IMG/VR virus record: IMGVR_UViG_3300032265_000605
Coordinates: 1 to 21,735 of that record
Source: a virus
Reading direction: 5' to 3' (one strand)
Length of the DNA stretch: 21,735 bases
The stretch's first letter is position 1. Every line of letters begins with the position of its first letter. Made by a program: the position numbers and the translations under genes. The notes under the pieces were generated by a model that searched no databases, was not told the origin of the DNA, and saw nothing but the letters and a program-made list of their open reading frames with translations. Shown here one piece after another: positions 3,296 through 18,789 of the stretch.

Positions 3296-4027
3296 ATGAG
3301 AGACCATCTATTAGACATCGTTAAAAACACTTACGGATTGGGCATTATCGACCTAGTCAAAATCACAGGCACAGACACAGAAACCAATATTGAAGCACTA
3401 GCAGAAGACCGTAGTGTTATCGTACAGGCTAAACTAAACGGTCCAGAAGCAGAATTTATTGGTACATTTGGCATGCCAAATCTAGGCAAACTAAACACTA
3501 TCTTAGGTATTCCAGAATACAAAGATAACGCTAAGATTTCAATCACCACACAAGATCGCAATGGCAGTCAAGTACCAGTAGGACTACATTTTGAAAATGC
3601 TGCTGGTGACTTTAAGAATGATTATCGTTTTATGAGTCAAGAGATTGTCAACGACAAACTTAAAACAGTTAAAATGCGAGCAGTTACTTGGCACGTAGAG
3701 TTTGAGCCAACTGTGGCTAATATCCAAAGACTTAAATTCCAAGCCAGTGCTAATGCAGAAGAAGCAAACTTTACTGCTAAGACTAACAATAGCAACTTAG
3801 AATTGTCATTTGGTGACCATTCAAGCCACGCAGGTAACTTTGTATTCCAAGCAGGTGTAACAGGTACACTAAGTAAAAATTGGTCATGGCCAGTCAATGC
3901 TGTTATCAGCATCTTAAACCTAGCAGGTGATAAGAAATTCAGTATCAGCGATGAAGGTGCGGCACAGATTACGGTTAATAGTGGCCTGGCAACTTACAAT
4001 TTCATCTTACCAGCACAAAGCAAGTAA
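3296..4027 (+). CDS. gp45: gp45-like sliding clamp (DNA polymerase processivity factor)
   Basis: A 243-residue protein resembling the T4 gp45 sliding clamp (228 aa), the trimeric ring that tethers gp43 to DNA and, in T4, also activates late transcription. Supporting features are the EFIGTFGMPNLGKLNTIL segment, which matches the first-domain strand-helix of gp45, the repeated beta-rich pattern of two clamp domains, and a C-terminal strand reading VNSGLATYNFILPA. No catalytic motif is expected in this family. The ribosome-binding site AAAGGAGA lies just before the ATG at 3296, and the gene has its own promoter (3246-3274). The TAA at 4025-4027 shares a base with the ATG of the next gene. The gp44/gp62 clamp-loader genes are not adjacent in this window. 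The assignment is from overall pattern and conserved segments, not from an alignment. Confidence 0.75.
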   Translation: MRDHLLDIVKNTYGLGIIDLVKITGTDTETNIEALAEDRSVIVQAKLNGPEAEFIGTFGMPNLGKLNTILGIPEYKDNAKISITTQDRNGSQVPVGLHFENAAGDFKNDYRFMSQEIVNDKLKTVKMRAVTWHVEFEPTVANIQRLKFQASANAEEANFTAKTNNSNLELSFGDHSSHAGNFVFQAGVTGTLSKNWSWPVNAVISILNLAGDKKFSISDEGAAQITVNSGLATYNFILPAQSK

Positions 4028-4611
4028 TGAAATCAGGGTATGATCGCTGGGTACATCTAGGTCATACCTTAGGTGAATGTTGGGTTGATGCGGAACAAGA
4101 CATAACCTTCGTTCATATACCTAAAAATGCCAGCAGTTTTATCAAAGGTTGTTTGTTAGGTTCTTTTAAATTTACGCACAGCGATACGCTAGTTAAAAGT
4201 AATAGATATTTAGTAGCACTACGTGATCCCATTGAACGTTGGGTCAGTGGAATGGCTGAATATGAATTTAATAGTAAACAGTCAGGCATAGATTACCAAC
4301 AGATAACCTTTGATGATCATACAGAAACACAGGATTATTTTTTACAAGATATCGTAATTAAGAATACTGATTTTATTATGGTTAACGCTAATCTAAGAAC
4401 AAACTTAAAACGTTGGTTTGATGAATTTGGATACTGTGTTGATGTTGATAATATGATACAGTATAATGCTAGCCTAGATACAGACAAACAACAGTTGAAA
4501 CTTAAATATCAAGCAATCATTGACAGTGATCCTAATTTCGTGTTAAAATTAAAGAAACACTACGCCAACGACTACAAATTAATTAATTCGGTAAAATATT
4601 ATGGAACGTGA
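4027..4611 (+). CDS. sulfotransferase-like protein
   Basis: A 194-residue protein with the two PAPS-binding signatures of the sulfotransferase superfamily. The 5'-phosphosulfate loop is FVHIPKNASSFIKG (residues 28-41, Lys33 and Ser36/Ser37). The 3'-phosphate motif is LRDPIERWVSG (residues 65-75, Arg66 and Ser74). HIPKNASS is typical of the sulfotransferase type that acts on carbohydrates or unknown acceptors. The protein is shorter than most such enzymes (250-300 aa), so the acceptor-binding part is reduced. It starts in the TAATG overlap with the clamp gene and its 3' end overlaps dpdA by 11 bases, implying translational coupling to both. The acceptor is unknown; a surface glycan, small metabolite or modified base could each fit. 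Fold confidence is good, substrate confidence none. Confidence 0.7.
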   Translation: MKSGYDRWVHLGHTLGECWVDAEQDITFVHIPKNASSFIKGCLLGSFKFTHSDTLVKSNRYLVALRDPIERWVSGMAEYEFNSKQSGIDYQQITFDDHTETQDYFLQDIVIKNTDFIMVNANLRTNLKRWFDEFGYCVDVDNMIQYNASLDTDKQQLKLKYQAIIDSDPNFVLKLKKHYANDYKLINSVKYYGT

Positions 4612-6163
4612 TAACTTAACCAGCAAACAACTTGACTACGCTGTATTCTTACCAGCATTGAGTGGCTTTTATGCTACCTATGTAGGTAAACAACGGCATG
4701 ATCCCACGTATGTAGATCCTGCACGTATTCCAGCAGACTTTGAAACGGGCATCGAAGGACTTAATTGGCTTAATCCAGATGCCGCATACTTTCCATATCA
4801 TTGGGCACTGTATTCGGCAGGTCACGCAGAACTTGATACAAATAAAGTCAGTCCTAAAGAAGACATGATACGTAATCGTGATCGCAGCCGTTCATTCGTC
4901 CTAGGTGACAGTGGTGGTTTCCAGATTGGTAAGGGCGTGTGGGAAGGAGATTGGAAGAATCCTGCGTGTCCTAAAGCACAAAAGAAACGTGAGCTAGTGC
5001 TCAAGTGGATGGACGCTTATATGGACTATGGAATGATCTTAGATATTCCAGCGTGGGTATGTCGTAGCCCAGAAGGTCGCAAAGCAAGTGGTATTACTAG
5101 TTATATGGAAGCTGTAGAAGGCACATATATCAACAATGATTATTTTATGGCGAATCGCACAGGTGCTTGTAAGTTCTTAAATGTTTTACAAGGCGAGAAT
5201 CACGCAGAGGCAGAAGATTGGTATCAACGCATGAAGAAATACTGTGATCCTCGTCAGTATGATCGACCATTCAATGGTTGGGCCATGGGTGGACAGAACA
5301 TGTGTGATGTACATCTGGTGCTGAAAAGATTGGTAGCACTACGTTTTGATGGGCTGTTAGAAGAAGGCCTACATGATTGGATGCACTTCTTAGGCACAAG
5401 TAAACTTGAATGGGCTTGTTTATTAACAGATATACAGCGTGCCGTGCGTAAATATCATAATCCTAAGTTTACTATATCCTTTGACTGTGCAAGTCCATTC
5501 TTAGCTAGTGCCAACGGTCAGATCTATATACAGACAGAGATAGTAGACAAAGAGAAATGGGTATATCGTATGGTGCCCAGTGTAGATGATAAGAAGTATG
5601 CCAAGGATACACGCAGATTTAAGGACGCTGTCATACAAGATAATATCTTTGAAAACTTTACAGAAAGTCCGATCAGCCAACGTTGCACTATAAAAGATAT
5701 TTGTATCTATGCGCCAGGTGACCTAAATAAGATTGGTAAAGAAGGCAAGACTTCGTGGGACAGTTTTAGCTATGCTATACAGATGGGGCATAATGTTTGG
5801 AGCCATTTAACAGCGGTACAACAAGCCAATCGTGAATATGATCTTAATATACGTCCAGCCATGTTAAATTCAGAAACAGCAGATAGGAAAACACCAAGGA
5901 ACTATGGGATTAATAATTTCCGTGACATAGCAGATATGATATTCGCACTCGACAACAGAGAAGATGCCCTGGCATTGATTGAATACTATAACAAGTATTG
6001 GATGGGTATCATTGGCACACGAGGTGCTATAGGTAAAAAAACTATGAACTCTAGCACTACGTTTAATGATTTATTTGCAACTGAAGATCCCGTGGAAGAA
6101 CACCATCCAGATGATAGCGGCTTAGATGAAACTAGACTAGATGAATTAGAACAAGATGTCTAA
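4601..6163 (+). CDS. dpdA: DpdA-family guanine transglycosylase (7-deazaguanine insertion into DNA)
   Basis: A 520-residue member of the tRNA-guanine transglycosylase superfamily, best matching phage DpdA proteins, which exchange guanine in DNA for a 7-deazaguanine. Key signatures are LGDSGGFQIGKG with the base-binding Asp103 (TGT consensus DSGGFQ), WAMGG near 225-230, and FDCASPFLASANGQIYI, which aligns with FDC-x-P-T/S-R-x-A-R-x-G of TGT and supplies the nucleophile Asp295. GHNVWSHL (His397) matches the TGT HN(L) zinc-ligand helix. The usual CxCx2C zinc knuckle before it is reduced to Cys362 and Cys368 (CX5C). The acidic C-terminal tail (about 490-520) is probably disordered. It overlaps the sulfotransferase-like gene at its start and the radical SAM gene by 8 bases at its end. 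folE, queE and queD in the same window support action on DNA with a phage-made precursor. Confidence 0.82.
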   Translation: MERDNLTSKQLDYAVFLPALSGFYATYVGKQRHDPTYVDPARIPADFETGIEGLNWLNPDAAYFPYHWALYSAGHAELDTNKVSPKEDMIRNRDRSRSFVLGDSGGFQIGKGVWEGDWKNPACPKAQKKRELVLKWMDAYMDYGMILDIPAWVCRSPEGRKASGITSYMEAVEGTYINNDYFMANRTGACKFLNVLQGENHAEAEDWYQRMKKYCDPRQYDRPFNGWAMGGQNMCDVHLVLKRLVALRFDGLLEEGLHDWMHFLGTSKLEWACLLTDIQRAVRKYHNPKFTISFDCASPFLASANGQIYIQTEIVDKEKWVYRMVPSVDDKKYAKDTRRFKDAVIQDNIFENFTESPISQRCTIKDICIYAPGDLNKIGKEGKTSWDSFSYAIQMGHNVWSHLTAVQQANREYDLNIRPAMLNSETADRKTPRNYGINNFRDIADMIFALDNREDALALIEYYNKYWMGIIGTRGAIGKKTMNSSTTFNDLFATEDPVEEHHPDDSGLDETRLDELEQDV

Positions 6164-7301
6164 ATTCTTTTGCCCTTTGCCTTGGATACATCAATTTATC
6201 CAAGCAGACGGAATTAAAATGTGTTGTAGTAGTGGTACTAAACTCAACCTAACTCCTACAGAATTTGCCAATTCTGATTACATAAAGGTAGTAAGAGAAA
6301 CCATCACCAATGGTGATATTCCTTCAGATTGCCAATCTTGTGTCCGTTTAGAAAATCAAGGATATAATAGCACCAGAACACTAGCACTGAATGATTGGGA
6401 TTATGATATAGATACCGTTCCTACTCAGACAGAATATCTTGACCTAAGACATAGTAATCTATGCAATTTTAGTTGTAGGACCTGTGAGCCAGGATTTAGT
6501 AGCGAAATATCCAGAGAATTATCAGAACATGATGAACTAAAAACATATCATGGTATTATATCTGACATACACATAGAAAATACCTTAATAAGATCTGATT
6601 TAATTAATTTCCTTCCAACTGTAAAAAGGATTAATTTTACCGGCGGTGAACCATTGTTAATTAAAGAAAATATTAGCGTATTTGAAGAATTAATTGCATT
6701 AGGTAATATTGATTGTGAAATATTAATCACTACCAATGGTTCAGTTATTAATAATAAAATATTAGAATTGATTAAAAAATTTAACAATGTGCATTGGACT
6801 ATAAGCATTGATGGTGTTGGAACTACTGCTGAGTATATAAGAAACGGTACTAAGTGGGAAAAGCTACAAGATAATATTAATCAAATATTATTATTAGGAC
6901 ATAGTGTAGCGTTTAATACTGTATTGAGTGCATATAGTGTTTTAGATTTAAGCAATTTGGCGAAGTTTTTTAAGGCACAGAAAGAAAAATTCCCCAATCA
7001 ACCATTGGAGATATGGTGTGCGATTTGCGATACTCCCGATTTCTTACATCCACAGGTGCTTACTAAAAAATTAAAAGATAAGTCACTGGTGGAAATTACC
7101 CAAACGTTAATGATATTAACAGATATAGAAAAAACAGTTCATATTAGTAGCTTAGATCCATTAAATTCATTGCAAAAAAATCTAAATGATAGTATAATAA
7201 ATGAAACGCTGTCAACTAAATTTATAGAATATACATTAACCATAGATAAAATAAGAAATCAAAATTTCAATCAAACTTTTAATATAGATTTATTATCATA
7301 A
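6156..7301 (+). CDS. radical SAM protein, twitch/SPASM-like
   Basis: A 381-residue radical SAM enzyme. The N-terminal region has FFCPLPWIHQFIQADG followed by KMCCSSG, a Cys-rich segment typical of twitch or SPASM-related radical SAM proteins. The cluster motif is C103-NFS-C107-RT-C110 (CX3CX2C), followed by the SAM-contacting FTGGEPLL. Later strands read ILITTNGS and WTISIDGVG, as in SPASM-type enzymes. The C-terminus has no clear second Cys cluster. The gene overlaps dpdA by 8 bases, so the two are co-translated, and metK lies downstream in the window. The gene is visibly more AT-rich than dpdA (many TTA, ATA and AAT codons), suggesting separate acquisition. The substrate is unknown: acting on the deazaguanine base is an attractive guess, but glycan or peptide modification is equally possible. 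Confidence 0.8.
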   Translation: MSKFFCPLPWIHQFIQADGIKMCCSSGTKLNLTPTEFANSDYIKVVRETITNGDIPSDCQSCVRLENQGYNSTRTLALNDWDYDIDTVPTQTEYLDLRHSNLCNFSCRTCEPGFSSEISRELSEHDELKTYHGIISDIHIENTLIRSDLINFLPTVKRINFTGGEPLLIKENISVFEELIALGNIDCEILITTNGSVINNKILELIKKFNNVHWTISIDGVGTTAEYIRNGTKWEKLQDNINQILLLGHSVAFNTVLSAYSVLDLSNLAKFFKAQKEKFPNQPLEIWCAICDTPDFLHPQVLTKKLKDKSLVEITQTLMILTDIEKTVHISSLDPLNSLQKNLNDSIINETLSTKFIEYTLTIDKIRNQNFNQTFNIDLLS

Positions 7302-7317
7302 AAGAAAGGAATGGGGT

Positions 7318-7512
7318 ATGAATAAAGAAAAGTTACAACATCACCTAAAACATCTACAAGAACGTCACATACTACTAGAAAAGAAAATCAATGATGGATA
7401 TAGTCATTATTTGGATGACGCACACCTTGGTAAAATCAAACATGAAAAACTAGTCCTTAAACGTGACATCGAAAATACTAAAAAGAAGTTGGCAGAATAC
7501 GATGAAGCGTGA
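7318..7512 (+). CDS. small coiled-coil protein, DUF465/YdcH-like
   Basis: A 64-residue, highly charged helical protein. The pattern HHLKHLQERHILLEKKI, an acidic break, then IKHEKLVLKRDIENTKKKL resembles the DUF465 (YdcH) family of small two-helix proteins, whose function is not known. There is a strong ribosome-binding site (AAAGAAAGGAATGGGGT) directly before the ATG at 7318, after a 16-base gap from the radical SAM gene. The next gene starts within its last codons (7502), so the two are coupled. The family match is by pattern only. Confidence 0.6.
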   Translation: MNKEKLQHHLKHLQERHILLEKKINDGYSHYLDDAHLGKIKHEKLVLKRDIENTKKKLAEYDEA

Positions 7513-8029
7513 TTATACAGATGGCGTAAAAGAAGACATAACATTCTTTACAGGTGTAGAGATTGAACAGACTCCTGCATTTGGTATGATGACATTATTT
7601 GTAGTAGGCGTACAACCTGCAGAAGAAATCATAGCACTAGCCAAAGAAAAAGACTGTAAACACATTTATTTCGGTGCTAATCAAAGTTTTCTAAAGATTG
7701 ACAGTGATGATGCCAGAGTCTGGAAACAATGGGAAGTCATGATACGAGCATGTCTCGATACAGATTTTTGGTGCACATTGGACTTAGACGTGGCCTGTGT
7801 AGAGGGACTATTAGAAGGTCCATTGGTTGAGTATCGTCGATTTATTCCGCAGATTTCGGTAAAAATTCCATACTTGACACAGCTGGGATATAATGCTACA
7901 ATTAAGATAGATGATAAAGATTTTGATGCAACGAACCCTGGTGTTTGGTGCCATCGACTACGTGATTTAACAACAACTGAAACTTTTACTGATTGGGATC
8001 AGTATGGAAAGGATATTGTTATAAAATGA
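7502..8029 (+). CDS. conserved phage protein of unknown function
   Basis: A 175-residue protein starting MKRDYTDGVKED at the ATG at 7502; upstream in-frame codons belong to the overlap with the coiled-coil gene. It alternates strands and helices (TLFVVGVQ, KHIYFGAN, FWCTLDLDVACVEGL, QISVKIPYL), an alpha/beta layout. Three Cys (RACLDTDFWC and VACVEG) and conserved-looking acids (LDLD) could bind metal or substrate, but no motif is recognised. The alternation FWCTLDLD/ISVKIPYL is loosely reminiscent of the strands of a TIM barrel half, without catalytic evidence. It sits between the dpdA/radical SAM pair and the nuclease-like and QueF-like genes and ends in an ATGA overlap, so it probably belongs to the same modification operon. 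No function is assigned. Confidence 0.7.
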   Translation: MKRDYTDGVKEDITFFTGVEIEQTPAFGMMTLFVVGVQPAEEIIALAKEKDCKHIYFGANQSFLKIDSDDARVWKQWEVMIRACLDTDFWCTLDLDVACVEGLLEGPLVEYRRFIPQISVKIPYLTQLGYNATIKIDDKDFDATNPGVWCHRLRDLTTTETFTDWDQYGKDIVIK

Positions 8030-8643
8030 TTACAAGCGCAGAAGAATTATTACTAGATGTAGTAAAGTCAGCACTATTAGGGGTTAAGGTTCCATCAAAC
8101 CTACATGGTAAGGCTGGAAATCACATAGAAACCTTATTAAGGAAGTTAGGATTTCCTATTAATAGTAGAGGACTGATTGACATCAAGAAAAGAGGAATAA
8201 AATTAGAAGTAAAATCTAGAAGAAATGATGCCAGCAGTGCATTTACTATTGGATCAATGCTTAAATCCAAAATTATTAAAACTTCAGATTGGTATCAATC
8301 TCCTATGTGTAAAAAGATGAATAAAATATTATTATTTACAACTGGTGGCACAGAATTAAATCCAGATGATAATATTATTCTTGATATCAGCATATATGAT
8401 TTTAAAGATAGACCTGAAATACAAGATCTTTTAAAGGATTCCTGGGATAACAGTAGACAACAATTAATAACAAATGCCAAAAATAAAAATTTCAAATATT
8501 GCAGCTCCGATGGGTATATTGCTTATTTTGAACGTGTTCCTGACAAGAATAGTTGGCAATTCAGATTTAATAAAACAAGATACCAATCTTTACTTAGGAT
8601 GGAAAAATCCAATTTTAAAAACATATTTGAGTATGGTGTATGA
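8026..8643 (+). CDS. PD-(D/E)XK nuclease-like protein (MutH/Sau3AI-like pattern)
   Basis: A 205-residue protein whose N-terminal half carries a nuclease signature. AGNHIETLLRKLGF (Glu35) is followed by LIDIKKRGIKLEVKSR, giving Asp52 then Glu61-X-Lys63, the PD-(D/E)XK arrangement. The order helix-Glu, short linker, 'Asp-Ile...Gly-Ile-Lys-Leu-Glu-x-Lys' is like MutH/Sau3AI-type endonucleases, in which a leading Glu and a D/ExK motif form the metal site. The C-terminal half shows strands (NKILLFTTGG, NIILDISIYDF) compatible with the rest of that fold. It starts in an ATGA overlap with the previous gene and ends in an ATGA overlap with the QueF-like gene. It is AT-richer than its neighbours. A restriction-type or host-DNA-degrading role, sparing modified phage DNA, is inference; a Holliday-junction or repair nuclease is an alternative. 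Confidence 0.55.
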   Translation: MITSAEELLLDVVKSALLGVKVPSNLHGKAGNHIETLLRKLGFPINSRGLIDIKKRGIKLEVKSRRNDASSAFTIGSMLKSKIIKTSDWYQSPMCKKMNKILLFTTGGTELNPDDNIILDISIYDFKDRPEIQDLLKDSWDNSRQQLITNAKNKNFKYCSSDGYIAYFERVPDKNSWQFRFNKTRYQSLLRMEKSNFKNIFEYGV

Positions 8644-9065
8644 TATTAGAAGAACGCGAAAAGATAGATAGAATTATTCGAGCTAGTCAAAAGAAAGTGT
8701 GGGTCACTTTCCAACGAGAAGGTATCCATTGTTTTCCTGCGGCGGCTGCTGATCCTAAACTAGCTGATGTTAGTTTTCTAGCACATCCACATCGACACAT
8801 GTTCCATTTTAGGATAAGTATTGATGTATTCCATGATGATAGAGAGCTCGAATTCATACAGTTTAAACGCTGGTGTGAAAGTCTCTACAGTGGTGTGCTA
8901 GAATTAAATTATAAGAGCTGTGAAATGATAGCAGATGATTTGTACGCACAGATCGCTGCCAAGTATCCCAATCGTGATGTTTGGATAGAAGTATCCGAAG
9001 ATGGCGAAAATGGGTGTTATGTTGAGTACAACTGTACTCGTCCTTATCAATCTGTCACTGTATAG
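8640..9065 (+). CDS. QueF-like T-fold protein (7-cyano-7-deazaguanine reductase family)
   Basis: A 141-residue protein resembling unimodular QueF, which reduces preQ0 to preQ1 with NADPH. Cys31-FPAAAA-Asp38 reproduces the catalytic Cys-X6-Asp spacing of QueF (Cys55/Asp62 in B. subtilis). HMFHFRISIDVF is the strand that follows. ELEFIQFKRWCESLY (Glu71 to Trp78) sits exactly where QueF has its E(S/L)K(S/A)hK(L/Y)(Y/F/W) motif: Glu71, Lys76 and Trp78 are kept, while the first Lys of the motif is Ile73. ELNYKSCEMIADDLYAQI and DVWIEVSEDG follow the helix and strand of the T-fold. The partial loss of the NADPH motif recalls QueF-like amidinotransferases, so the reaction could be reduction or conversion of preQ0 to another group. 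It lies in the operon downstream of dpdA. Confidence 0.68.
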   Translation: MILEEREKIDRIIRASQKKVWVTFQREGIHCFPAAAADPKLADVSFLAHPHRHMFHFRISIDVFHDDRELEFIQFKRWCESLYSGVLELNYKSCEMIADDLYAQIAAKYPNRDVWIEVSEDGENGCYVEYNCTRPYQSVTV

Positions 9066-11023: not shown

Positions 11024-11719
11024 TTGAGTGACAAAACAATCAGCGAACGAATTCTCGAACGCATCCAAAGTAAAAATGCTCGTTATTGGGCAGGTGACAA
11101 CATATCAGAATTCATATTAGATTCAGAACGTAGCGAACTAGTAGATGAACTAACAGGCAAATTTGAAGGTGTGTTAGATAGCTTGCTTATAGACAGACAC
11201 AATGATCCAAACAGCCAAGGTACAGCACGCCGGTTGGCTAAGATGTACTTGTATGAAATCATGGCAGGTAGATATGACCCAGCACCAGATGCCACAGCTT
11301 TTCCAAATGACAGCGAGGACCGATATGAAGGAATGTTGGTTGTTAGAAGTGAACTTCGTAGTATGTGTAGTCATCATCACCAGCCTGTCGCTGGGGTTGC
11401 CTATATTGGGATTATCGCCGCACAAAAACTTATTGGCTTGTCTAAGTATACTCGTATTGCTCAATGGTGTAGTCGTCGTGGCACACTACAAGAAGAACTT
11501 GCTAATGACATCGCCCGAGAAATAATGAAAGCCACAGGCAGTGATAATGTTGCTGTGTATATACAGGCCACACATGGTTGTTGTGAAAATCGTGGCATCA
11601 TGGCACATAGCAGTCTAACACAGACTACAGTATTAAAAGGTGCGTTCAAAGAAGATGGTAACACTAAGAAAGAATTCTTTGACAATATCAAACTACAACA
11701 GGAGTTTGCACCCAGATGA
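11024..11719 (+). CDS. folE: GTP cyclohydrolase I
   Basis: A 231-residue type I GTP cyclohydrolase, which converts GTP to 7,8-dihydroneopterin triphosphate, the first step of both folate and 7-deazaguanine synthesis. The zinc site is visible: MCSHHHQP (Cys115, His117, His118) and ATHGCCENRG (His184-x-Cys186). KLIGLSKYTRIAQWCSRR and LQEELANDIA are the usual substrate-pocket and helix segments. The start is TTG at 11024, with GGAGA seven bases upstream and no ATG near the family's N-terminus. It has its own promoter and its stop overlaps the next gene as ATGA. With queE, queD and dpdA nearby, its main role is probably supplying the deazaguanine precursor rather than folate. Confidence 0.93.
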   Translation: MSDKTISERILERIQSKNARYWAGDNISEFILDSERSELVDELTGKFEGVLDSLLIDRHNDPNSQGTARRLAKMYLYEIMAGRYDPAPDATAFPNDSEDRYEGMLVVRSELRSMCSHHHQPVAGVAYIGIIAAQKLIGLSKYTRIAQWCSRRGTLQEELANDIAREIMKATGSDNVAVYIQATHGCCENRGIMAHSSLTQTTVLKGAFKEDGNTKKEFFDNIKLQQEFAPR

Positions 11720-13089: not shown

Positions 13090-13310
13090 AATTATTAGAA
13101 AAACATGTTAAACTAATAGGATGGATCGCTAACATAGTGACCATCATTGGTGTTACACTTACTAGTTTTGATGTGTATCCACTTAATATCGCTGTGCTGG
13201 CATTGGCCTGTTTGGTTTGGGTAGTCACTGGTATGTTATGGCGTCGTCCAGAGCTATGGACACTGAATGCCATAATTTTTTGTATCTACGTATATGGATT
13301 ATTGAAATGA
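13086..13310 (+). CDS. small multi-pass membrane protein
   Basis: A 74-residue hydrophobic protein with two to three membrane segments: LIGWIANIVTIIGVTLTS, then NIAVLALACLVWVVTGML, and a shorter AIIFCIYVYGLL at the end. RRPELW lies between the second and third. The start is taken as the TTG at 13086, which overlaps the previous TGA; an in-frame TTG upstream (13059) would only add residues inside the phosphoribosyltransferase gene. The stop overlaps queE as ATGA. Similar tiny membrane proteins occur in many aquatic bacteria and phages without known function. Confidence 0.6.
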   Translation: MKLLEKHVKLIGWIANIVTIIGVTLTSFDVYPLNIAVLALACLVWVVTGMLWRRPELWTLNAIIFCIYVYGLLK

Positions 13311-14164
13311 GTAAAATCAAAGTTAGTGAAATATTTTATTCAGCACAGGGTGAAGGCCGCTTCGTAGGTGTACCTAGTGTTTTCTTGCGCACATTTGGTT
13401 GTAACTTTACCTGTCCAGGCTTTGGTATGCCCAGAGGTGTTAAGAGTACAGAAGCAGACATAGTAGCAGATTCTGTAGAACTCTACAAGTCATATGAAGA
13501 CTTACCTTTAGTCAACACAGGCTGTGATAGTTATGCGAGTTGGCATCCTAAGTTCAAACATCTGAGTCCAACATTCGAAACAGCAGATGTAGTTGCTAAG
13601 ATGCTGGCACTGGTTCCCAGCAATAGTTGGTCTATGCCCAATGGTAATGACACTCATTTGGTCATCACAGGTGGAGAACCATTGCTGGGCTGGCAACGTG
13701 CCTACAGTGAATTATTATCACATAAAGATATGTATAACCTAAAAAACATCACATTTGAAACCAACGGTACCCAAGAACTACATGAAGACTTTGCCAAATA
13801 TTTGAAATTGTGGAATCGAGGCAGCCGTGAGATCACATTCTCAGTTAGTGCTAAATTAAGTGCATCAGGTGAAGCGTGGGCTGATGCAGTCAAACCTGAA
13901 ATCGTCAAGAGTTATGAAAAGGTTGGTACTACATATCTCAAGTTTGTAGTCGAGAAACCCAGTGACTTCGATGAAGTAGATCGTGCAGTAGCAGAATATA
14001 GACGTGCGAAATTCAAAGGTGTAGTATATATCATGCCAGTAGGCGGTGTAGTCAGTGTCTATGATGGCAATAAATTTAATGTAGCCGATGAAGCCATGCG
14101 TCGCGGTTATTATTATAGTCCAAGGTTACATGTTGACCTTTGGGGCAACAGTTGGGGAAAATAA
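13307..14164 (+). CDS. queE: 7-carboxy-7-deazaguanine synthase-like radical SAM enzyme
   Basis: A 285-residue QueE-type enzyme, which rearranges 6-carboxytetrahydropterin to 7-carboxy-7-deazaguanine using SAM and a 4Fe-4S cluster. EIFYSAQGEGRFVGVPSVF is the QueE N-terminal signature, followed by RTFGCNFTC (Cys32, Cys36). The third cluster cysteine is not two residues later (Phe39 is there) but Cys73, in TGCDSYASW, which matches the CD(T/S)xx(S/A)W that normally follows directly. Thus about 34 extra residues split the motif into CX3CX36C. VITGGEPLL is the SAM-contacting motif, and ITFETNGTQ and YLKFVVEKPSDF follow as in QueE. The start is the ATG at 13307 (ATGA overlap); longer readings run into the membrane-protein gene. 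Confidence 0.85.
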   Translation: MSKIKVSEIFYSAQGEGRFVGVPSVFLRTFGCNFTCPGFGMPRGVKSTEADIVADSVELYKSYEDLPLVNTGCDSYASWHPKFKHLSPTFETADVVAKMLALVPSNSWSMPNGNDTHLVITGGEPLLGWQRAYSELLSHKDMYNLKNITFETNGTQELHEDFAKYLKLWNRGSREITFSVSAKLSASGEAWADAVKPEIVKSYEKVGTTYLKFVVEKPSDFDEVDRAVAEYRRAKFKGVVYIMPVGGVVSVYDGNKFNVADEAMRRGYYYSPRLHVDLWGNSWGK

Positions 14165-14174
14165 AAGGAAAATT

Positions 14175-15281
14175 ATGAGTTATTTGTTTACATCAGAATC
14201 AGTAAGTGAAGGACATCCAGATAAAGTAGCAGACGCTATCAGTGATGCGGTATTAGATCTAGTCATGCGTGATGAGAATCCTGCACTTCGCTGTGCTTGC
14301 GAAACACTAGTAACAACTAATCAAGTTGTACTAGCAGGCGAATATAAAGGGATCTTAAATGTTCCAGAAGTTGAAGCCAGTGTTCGTAGGACTATTGCTC
14401 AAATTGGCTACGAGCAAGAAGGTTTTGATTGGCGTACTGTTAATATTATTAATCTATTACATGGTCAAAGTGCAGATATCGCCTTAGGTACAGATACATT
14501 TGGTGCCGGTGACCAAGGACTGATGTTTGGTTATGCTATCAATGAAACACCAGACCTAATGCCAAGTGCTATCTACTACAGTCATAAAATTGTAAAAGAG
14601 CTAACTCTACGTCGTAAAAATGGAGTTACGTGGTTAGGACCTGATGCTAAGTCACAGGTAACTATGGAATATCACGATGATGGTAGCGTAAAACGTATCG
14701 CCAAGATCGTATGTTCAACACAACATTCAGCTGATATAGATATCAGTGAAGTACGAGTAGCTGTTGAAAGTTATATTAGAGACGTATTACCTAAGGAGTT
14801 AATTGATGCTGACACTGAGTTTCTTATCAATCCTACTGGTAGGTTTGTTATTGGTGGCCCCGATGGTGATACTGGTCTTACTGGTCGTAAAATTATTGTT
14901 GATACTTATGGCGGCTATAGCCCTCACGGTGGTGGTGCTTTTAGTGGTAAAGATCCTACTAAAGTTGATCGTAGTGCTGCTTATATGGCTAGGTATCTAG
15001 CTAAGAATATTGTATTCGACAAAGGTGCACACAAAGCCACTGTTCAGATCAGCTATGCTATTGGTGTTAAAGAACCAACTAGTTTGTTTGTTAAAACAGA
15101 TCAGGGCATCGAATTTGATAATACGATTACCCGATGGATCCGTGAAAATGTTGATCTCACACCGCAAGGTATCATAAATAGATTTGAGCTGTTCCGTCCT
15201 ATATACAGCGGTACAACTAACTACGGACACTTCGGTAAAGCCGACTTACCATGGGAAAAGTTAGATTTATTCAAGGACTAA
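14175..15281 (+). CDS. metK: S-adenosylmethionine synthetase
   Basis: A 368-residue methionine adenosyltransferase, making SAM from ATP and methionine. Signatures seen are SESVSEGHPDKVADAISD (ATP site, residues about 6-23), GAGDQGLMFGYA (methionine/ATP loop), DTYGGYSPHGGGAFSGKDPT (P-loop-like and metal site) and KVDRSAAYMARY. The length is slightly below the about 384 residues of bacterial MetK. The ATG at 14175 has AAAGGAAAATT upstream; a longer frame reaches back only into queE. It is 10 bases from queE and one base from the next gene. The likely purpose is to supply SAM to the two radical SAM enzymes and any methyltransferase during infection. A phage-encoded MetK is uncommon among T4-like phages. 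Confidence 0.95.
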   Translation: MSYLFTSESVSEGHPDKVADAISDAVLDLVMRDENPALRCACETLVTTNQVVLAGEYKGILNVPEVEASVRRTIAQIGYEQEGFDWRTVNIINLLHGQSADIALGTDTFGAGDQGLMFGYAINETPDLMPSAIYYSHKIVKELTLRRKNGVTWLGPDAKSQVTMEYHDDGSVKRIAKIVCSTQHSADIDISEVRVAVESYIRDVLPKELIDADTEFLINPTGRFVIGGPDGDTGLTGRKIIVDTYGGYSPHGGGAFSGKDPTKVDRSAAYMARYLAKNIVFDKGAHKATVQISYAIGVKEPTSLFVKTDQGIEFDNTITRWIRENVDLTPQGIINRFELFRPIYSGTTNYGHFGKADLPWEKLDLFKD

Positions 15282-18240: not shown

Positions 18241-18789
18241 ATGGCATGGATTATAGATAAGACGTTCGAATTTTGCTATGGACACAGAGTTTGGACACAG
18301 AAACTAAATGGCGAATATGCGGCAGACTTAAAGTGTGCTTGCCGTCACCTACATGGACATGAAGGTAAGATGCAGGTTTATCTAAAAAGTCCAACTGGCG
18401 AATTAGATCCAACTGGTATGGTAACAGACTTCCGTCATCTTGAATGGTTGAAGAAATGGATAAATGAATATATTGATCATCAGTTTGTTATTGACAAGAA
18501 TGATCCGTTATACAGTCAGTTGATTGGTGATAAAATATTATTACCAGTGTATGTTCCCGAAACAACTCATATAGCAGGATGGAATGTTCGTTTAGATGGC
18601 ATCAAACGAGATACACCAGAATATGAATACTTTGAAGGTTTTTTAATCGTGGACTTTGTTCCAACAAGTGAAAACTTATCAAGTTGGATGGCTGATCTTG
18701 TAGAAGCAAAAATGAGCAAATTAAACGTAACTGTTGACCACATTGATTGGTGGGAAACTCCTAAGTCAAGATCAGTATTTTATAGGTAA
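18241..18789 (+). CDS. queD: 6-carboxy-5,6,7,8-tetrahydropterin synthase
   Basis: A 182-residue QueD/PTPS-family enzyme, converting dihydroneopterin triphosphate to 6-carboxytetrahydropterin, the substrate of QueE. Zinc ligands are His15 (FEFCYGHRVW) and His38/His40 in CRHLHGHEG, with the catalytic Cys34 in Cys-x3-His-Gly-His. VTDFRHLEWLKKWINEYIDHQF is the central helix, and FVPTSENLSSWM is the PT(S/A)EN pterin-binding motif. It is longer than typical QueD (about 120 aa) owing to an extra middle segment (about 88-125). The ATG at 18241 follows an AAGGATTAATAT leader. It has its own promoter, apart from folE and queE, and its stop overlaps the next tiny gene as TAATG. Confidence 0.9.
   Translation: MAWIIDKTFEFCYGHRVWTQKLNGEYAADLKCACRHLHGHEGKMQVYLKSPTGELDPTGMVTDFRHLEWLKKWINEYIDHQFVIDKNDPLYSQLIGDKILLPVYVPETTHIAGWNVRLDGIKRDTPEYEYFEGFLIVDFVPTSENLSSWMADLVEAKMSKLNVTVDHIDWWETPKSRSVFYR

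Follow-up and report, generated by a model that had tools for sequence, protein, structure and literature searches.

A predicted MutH-fold nuclease carried as an optional module in a phage 7-deazaguanine-type modification cassette

Introduction

The presence of 7-deazaguanine in phage DNA is already known as an armor against host restriction. The locus that we describe here raises the question of what a nuclease gene would be doing inside the very operon that is predicted to build this armor. The locus lies in a 21,735-base IMG/VR virus record (IMGVR_UViG_3300032265_000605), hereafter the window, and the window covers all of that record (positions 1 to 21,735). As it carries a family B DNA polymerase and, at 3296-4027, a gene that we take to be a sliding clamp, its source is probably a T4-like phage. 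An earlier note on this DNA had proposed that one gene of the operon encodes a nuclease that cuts unmodified DNA. We call this gene M, its upstream neighbor Q, its downstream neighbor X and the TGT-like gene of the same operon D, while L-numbers (L001, L003 and so on) designate the related loci to which the window was compared, and M+ and M- those with or without M. We will argue that the product of M may be a modification-coupled phage nuclease of MutH fold, for which 7-deazaguanine would be the mark and which would cut unmodified host or rival DNA, a reading to which we give slightly better than an even chance.

The modification cassette

The features of the cassette are collected in Table 1. 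No Pfam family matches the D protein, yet hhalign aligns its profile to E. coli TGT (E 0.0033) across the QG, GG and catalytic FDC..P motifs, and it contains a DSGGFQ motif; no significant alignment was obtained with the DpdA2 of phage nt-1. Because D aligns with TGT and because FolE, QueE and QueD are encoded in the same window, the whole is a DpdA-type 7-deazaguanine cassette, in which QueC is not among the genes identified in the window. Several other genes surround this core. A metK gene (methionine adenosyltransferase, 14154-15281, NCBIfam E 2e-137) lies near the radical SAM genes, and its product may supply them with SAM. The Twitch-domain radical SAM gene that follows D matches NF033640 (E 2e-83), shows a weaker similarity to prokaryotic viperins and is an optional part of the cassette. 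Directly before D, a sulfotransferase-like gene (4027-4611) is matched in Pfam under the cut-off (E 8e-4), and in the related locus L080 three successive ORFs (6997-8920) resemble it by eye.

Table 1. Coordinates of the cassette features in the window
Feature	Position	Strand	Remark
D: TGT-like (DpdA-type) base-exchange enzyme	4601..6163	+	DSGGFQ and FDC..P catalytic motifs
Twitch-domain radical SAM gene	6156..7301	+	cassette member in only part of the relatives
Q: conserved cassette protein, fold without clear PDB match	7502..8029	+	
M: predicted MutH/Sau3AI-fold PD-(D/E)XK endonuclease gene, 205 aa	8026..8643	+	E35, D52, E61-x-K63
ATGA overlap, M start / Q stop	8026..8029	+	sequence
ATGA overlap, M stop / X start	8640..8643	+	sequence
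X: conserved cassette protein, phrog_17812	8640..9065	+	
FolE, GTP cyclohydrolase I (preQ0 pathway)	11024..11719	+	
QueE-like radical SAM gene (preQ0 pathway)	13307..14164	+	
QueD-like gene (preQ0 pathway)	18241..18789	+	

The gene next to M had been described as QueF-like, and this identity was confirmed for neither neighbor. Neither Q nor X has a QueF match in Pfam or NCBIfam; the fold of Q finds no clear match in the PDB, QueE being reached at a Z of 6.0, which is under the reliable range; and X gives no match to E. coli QueF in hhalign. QueF thus found no support from profiles for either gene, nor from the fold for Q or from hhalign for X. Both proteins are highly conserved, with homologues in Pseudomonas phage Paride and Acidovorax phage ACP17. 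Paride, which is an isolate, has counterparts of all three genes, those of D and X close to each other and that of Q about 30 kb off. Its relative PA5oct, for which a system of deazaguanine synthesis and incorporation has been described (PMC7824862), also matches D, Q and X. The D gene itself has apparently been swapped in some loci, as its identity is 33-36% between L160 or L165 and L118, for a DNA polymerase that is 78-79% identical.

Predicted fold and active site of the nuclease

The reading frame of M runs from an ATG at 8026 to a stop at 8641-8643, over 205 codons, and it shares 4 bases (ATGA) with each neighbor, the stop of Q lying at 8027-8029 and the ATG of X at 8640. The frame, the two overlaps and the four residues of the proposed motif (Glu35, Asp52, Glu61 and Lys63) are all as first described. 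The motif by itself was nevertheless rejected as nuclease evidence: an E...D...[ED]xK pattern of similar spacing occurs in 393 of the 1598 frames of 150-260 amino acids from the same loci, and since 25% of comparable ORFs have one, it is weak evidence that does not rise above chance. What brings the nuclease call above chance is the conservation of the residues, the dN/dS values, the matches to MutH profiles and the predicted fold.

Homologues of M were gathered by IMG/VR scans, both with the neighboring genes and with M proteins. Among 20 aligned family members, D52 and K63 are kept in all, E61 in 19 (the remaining one having a D) and E35 in 18. Between close members the pairwise dN/dS of M is 0.06-0.12, so the gene is under purifying selection. 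In the divergent clade formed by L187, L275 and L278, a D replaces E61 and the position of M in the cassette is unchanged; in the L187 and L275 proteins a D also replaces E35.

The M protein of the window matches the Pfam MutH family (PF02976) with an E of 0.0066 and 16.8 bits, for a curated cut-off of 23, and the NCBIfam MutH family with an E of 0.023 and 13.8 bits, for a cut-off of 243; the best family member reaches an E of 4e-4 against the MutH profile. A search of PDB sequences with M returned chance matches only. An AlphaFold2 model built from 20 homologues has a pLDDT of 89 and a pTM of 0.85, and among its Foldseek matches MutH comes first (E 1e-6) and Sau3AI third. In VIA-align, the model superposes on MutH with a Z of 16.3 (2.9 A over 180 of the 205 residues), followed by Sau3AI (Z 12.8), MvaI (9.5) and BcnI (9.1), the HincII and EcoRV rows being lower, at about 6-8.7. 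The best structural matches are all nucleases of the PD-(D/E)XK superfamily, and the nuclease core that structure prediction was meant to look for is indeed present in the model. The kinship with MutH and Sau3AI, which had been suggested from the residue pattern, is borne out in that MutH is the best match among solved structures and Sau3AI the next family.

The alignment of M to MutH by hhalign pairs D52, E61 and K63 with D70, E77 and K79, which we take to be, with E56, the catalytic residues of MutH, and a W..S....K motif also pairs after them. It sets E35 about one helical turn off E56, so its role as the E56 counterpart is uncertain. In addition, the segment that corresponds to the recognition loop of MutH appears, by eye from the sequences, roughly 17-20 residues shorter in M. 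Judging from the model, it is near certain that M is a nuclease by identity; its nuclease fold is as firm as a prediction can make it, and its active site is very likely intact. These predicted features are best explained if M encodes a DNA endonuclease that has one domain, depends on metal and belongs to the MutH/Sau3AI branch of the PD-(D/E)XK superfamily.

An exchangeable module at a fixed place

The homologues of M were found in IMG/VR phage contigs only, and always within a TGT/DpdA-type modification cassette. The scans seeded with M gave 35 loci, several of which are contigs that were already known, so that they do not amount to 35 independent finds. A co-occurrence with dpdA had been put forward as a check, and a D gene does lie upstream of M, within about 3.2 kb, in all 33 testable loci, while X lies downstream in all 32 testable ones. 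This co-occurrence carries less weight because D occurs almost throughout the one phage lineage to which all the M carriers found belong. No M homologue was found in the collections of phage isolates and plasmids, and one scan of bacterial genome contigs with a related member revealed no bacterial relative. The M and MutH profiles gave no match in three cassette-related phages or in Synechococcus phage S-CAM7 (KU686212), for which BFVD nevertheless lists a protein as a structural match.

M is an optional module. It occupies 21 of the 151 distinct D-X intervals, and since 130 of these relatives have the cassette without it, it is not needed for the modification. In L003, the nearest row to the window by path on the D tree, D is 95-96% identical and M is absent. 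This locus, together with L004, L005, L006 and L020, offers a precise empty site, in which one ATGA both ends Q and begins X; in the window, M lies precisely between these two genes, with an ATGA at both junctions. The pairwise identities suggest that M is exchanged independently of its neighbors: between the window and L008 it is 51% identical for a D at 93%, between the window and L001 it is 94% identical for a D at 82%, and between L157 and L160 it is 84% identical, in the same position, for D, Q and X proteins at about 40%. M is thus a self-contained unit, patchy in its distribution and open to exchange, which recurs in this one operon.

Such a distribution would also fit a selfish endonuclease, free-standing and of the homing type, which would spread between related phages by cutting cassettes that lack it, and whose sole tie to the modification genes would be a target at or near the Q-X junction. 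The presence of M changes 14 times on the D tree, at least 10 of these changes being imposed by well-supported branches, and both the empty sites and the independent exchange fit this account. It is a serious rival because the D-X interval of other loci houses known homing types, namely an HNH nuclease in L145 and a GIY-YIG nuclease with NUMOD3 in L186. (A gene for an HhH-GPD DNA glycosylase, L192:4594-5001, also lies inside this interval.) We nonetheless hold it to be unlikely. The structural matches of M belong to the MutH/Sau3AI/MvaI/BcnI group, which are short-site enzymes. Homing genes commonly decay, and no decayed copy of M was found, while the purifying selection on M is strong. Furthermore, the gene upstream of M varies among loci (Q, another ORF, an oxygenase-like gene or D directly), and the flanks of M in L157 and L160 are far less alike than M itself, so that no co-converted flanks are seen there.

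Recognition sites

MutH and Sau3AI act at GATC, and the earlier note had drawn an argument from the frequency of this site in the window. GATC is indeed frequent relative to base composition (121 seen for 75 expected), but not relative to trinucleotide content, from which 126 are expected. Its observed over expected ratio is 0.96 in the window, 1.12 in M+ relatives and 1.10 in M- relatives, so that it is neither avoided nor enriched compared to relatives that lack M, and its abundance or avoidance was discarded as a clue to specificity, M+ and M- loci being alike. Given this unskewed distribution and the apparently shorter recognition-loop segment, GATC specificity should not be assumed for M, and the argument drawn from it falls. 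Nor did any other palindrome differ convincingly between the two groups: AGCGCT is absent from M+ loci, where 13 are expected, but it is also rare in M- loci (O/E 0.13).

A possible link between nuclease and modification

The gene of M, its fold, its active site, the selection that it undergoes and its strict placement in the cassette were established computationally. From these we infer that it would cut DNA, what it would recognize, how the modification would block it and what its biological target would be. M is probably translated from the same mRNA as the TGT/DpdA-type enzyme, with probable coupled translation. DpdA, together with FolE, QueD and QueE, would place a 7-deazaguanine base in the phage DNA, QueC being supplied from elsewhere in the phage genome or by the host. 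M would then cut or nick the DNA that lacks deazaguanine, that is the host chromosome or the DNA of a rival phage, and the modified phage DNA would be spared. In this way M would play for the phage the part of a restriction enzyme, as an optional gene and with base replacement rather than methylation as the mark.

Several observations suggest that deazaguanine could serve as self-protection, namely the probable coupled translation, the intact site, the lack of any separate immunity gene adjoining M and the lack of adenine or N4-cytosine methylases. Indeed, neither Dam-type (PF02086) nor N4/N6 (PF01555) methylases, the two types searched for, were found in the 26 M+ records, which are all fragments, and deazaguanine is therefore the sole candidate protection that was seen. 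The 7-deazaguanines block many restriction enzymes, and the deletion of dpdA in phage CAjan restores cutting (PMC6884629). The same logic is established for the T4 nucleases that are specific for unmodified cytosine DNA (PMC6071114), and it has been proposed for the jumbo phages in which Mom is fused to nuclease domains (PMC7824862); likewise, the restriction enzymes of chloroviruses degrade host DNA (PMC7019647). Other points weigh on the other side. In the DpdA2 phage nt-1, the modification reaches only about 0.1% of G (PMC6884629), and if it were as scarce here it would be too little against a frequent cutter. The reading is also weakened by the unrelated cargo, homing-type nucleases included, that the D-X interval holds elsewhere.

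One may also consider that M acts like MutH itself, as a nickase on the unmodified new strand of hemi-modified phage DNA, and either gives mismatch repair its strand direction, together with MutS and MutL of the host, or ensures that the modification is complete. MutH is the structure closest to M, and M, like MutH, consists of one domain, where Sau3AI has two; moreover, DpdA exchanges bases in finished DNA, so that new strands would be transiently unmodified. We regard this as improbable, however, as no MutS was found in the 26 M+ records (all fragments), the similarity to MutH proper is under the Pfam cut-off, the recognition-loop segment looks shorter, and most of the cassette-bearing relatives do without M. 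The more specific idea that 7-deazaguanine is a mark of strand discrimination and that M nicks the as yet unmodified strand of hemi-modified DNA, in a manner similar to that of Dam and MutH but by base replacement rather than methylation, seems to us a little less probable still. It is just as improbable as the nickase in general that M degrades host or rival DNA under a protection unrelated to deazaguanine (timing, site avoidance, compartment or a distant gene), its position being a cargo slot: the varied cargo of the D-X interval in other phages and the possible scarcity of the modification in a DpdA2 phage (PMC6884629) would fit, but the M-seeded scans never gave an M beyond the cassette, no site is convincingly avoided, and no separate immunity gene stands beside it.

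A mobile MutH-fold nuclease within the operon would make the armor a weapon, or else a mark of strands, and would reveal what, besides hiding, a phage gains from DNA modification. Should the activity be confirmed, M may also serve as a laboratory enzyme for distinguishing DNA with deazaguanine from normal DNA.

Comparison with known systems

In mismatch repair, MutH acts at hemimethylated GATC together with MutS and MutL. The E. coli protein (PF02976) is the best structural match of M, with which it shares the single domain, the D..ExK residues and the W..S....K motif. It differs in that the identity over the structural alignment is about 14%, M falling under the Pfam cut-off, and in that M sits in a phage DNA-modification operon, with an apparently shorter loop segment and no MutS seen in the M+ records. 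The type II restriction enzyme Sau3AI has the same nuclease fold as the one predicted for M, but it is built of two such domains and is paired with a methylase, whereas M has one domain and no methylase of the Dam or N4/N6 types was found with it. The monomeric restriction enzymes MvaI and BcnI share a single-domain, MutH-related fold, and enzymes of this type cut one strand at a time (PMC4081073). Their structural match to M is weaker, and their partner is a methylase.

Other systems resemble M by the logic that we propose for it. To our knowledge, endonucleases II and IV of T4 (denA and denB) are not MutH-like. They are phage nucleases that spare the phage's own modified DNA (PMC6071114), and their mark is hydroxymethylcytosine. 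The restriction enzymes of chloroviruses and the Mom-nuclease fusions of jumbo phages also link a viral modification gene to a restriction-type nuclease (PMC7019647, PMC7824862), but with methylation or the Mom modification instead of 7-deazaguanine; in addition, the Mom fusions are one protein and the hosts of chloroviruses are algae, both unlike M. Finally, the phage DpdA and DpdA2 cassettes have, like the window, FolE, QueD, QueE and a TGT-like enzyme, and their 7-deazaguanine shields the DNA from restriction (PMC6884629). They differ in that no nuclease is mentioned in that report and in that D does not align with the DpdA2 of nt-1. The literature that we covered, open-access for the most part, holds no report tying a MutH-fold nuclease to a DpdA cassette. 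The pairing of a phage nuclease with a phage DNA modification is a known one, and what would be new here, in our best reading, is that a MutH fold is associated with a 7-deazaguanine cassette.
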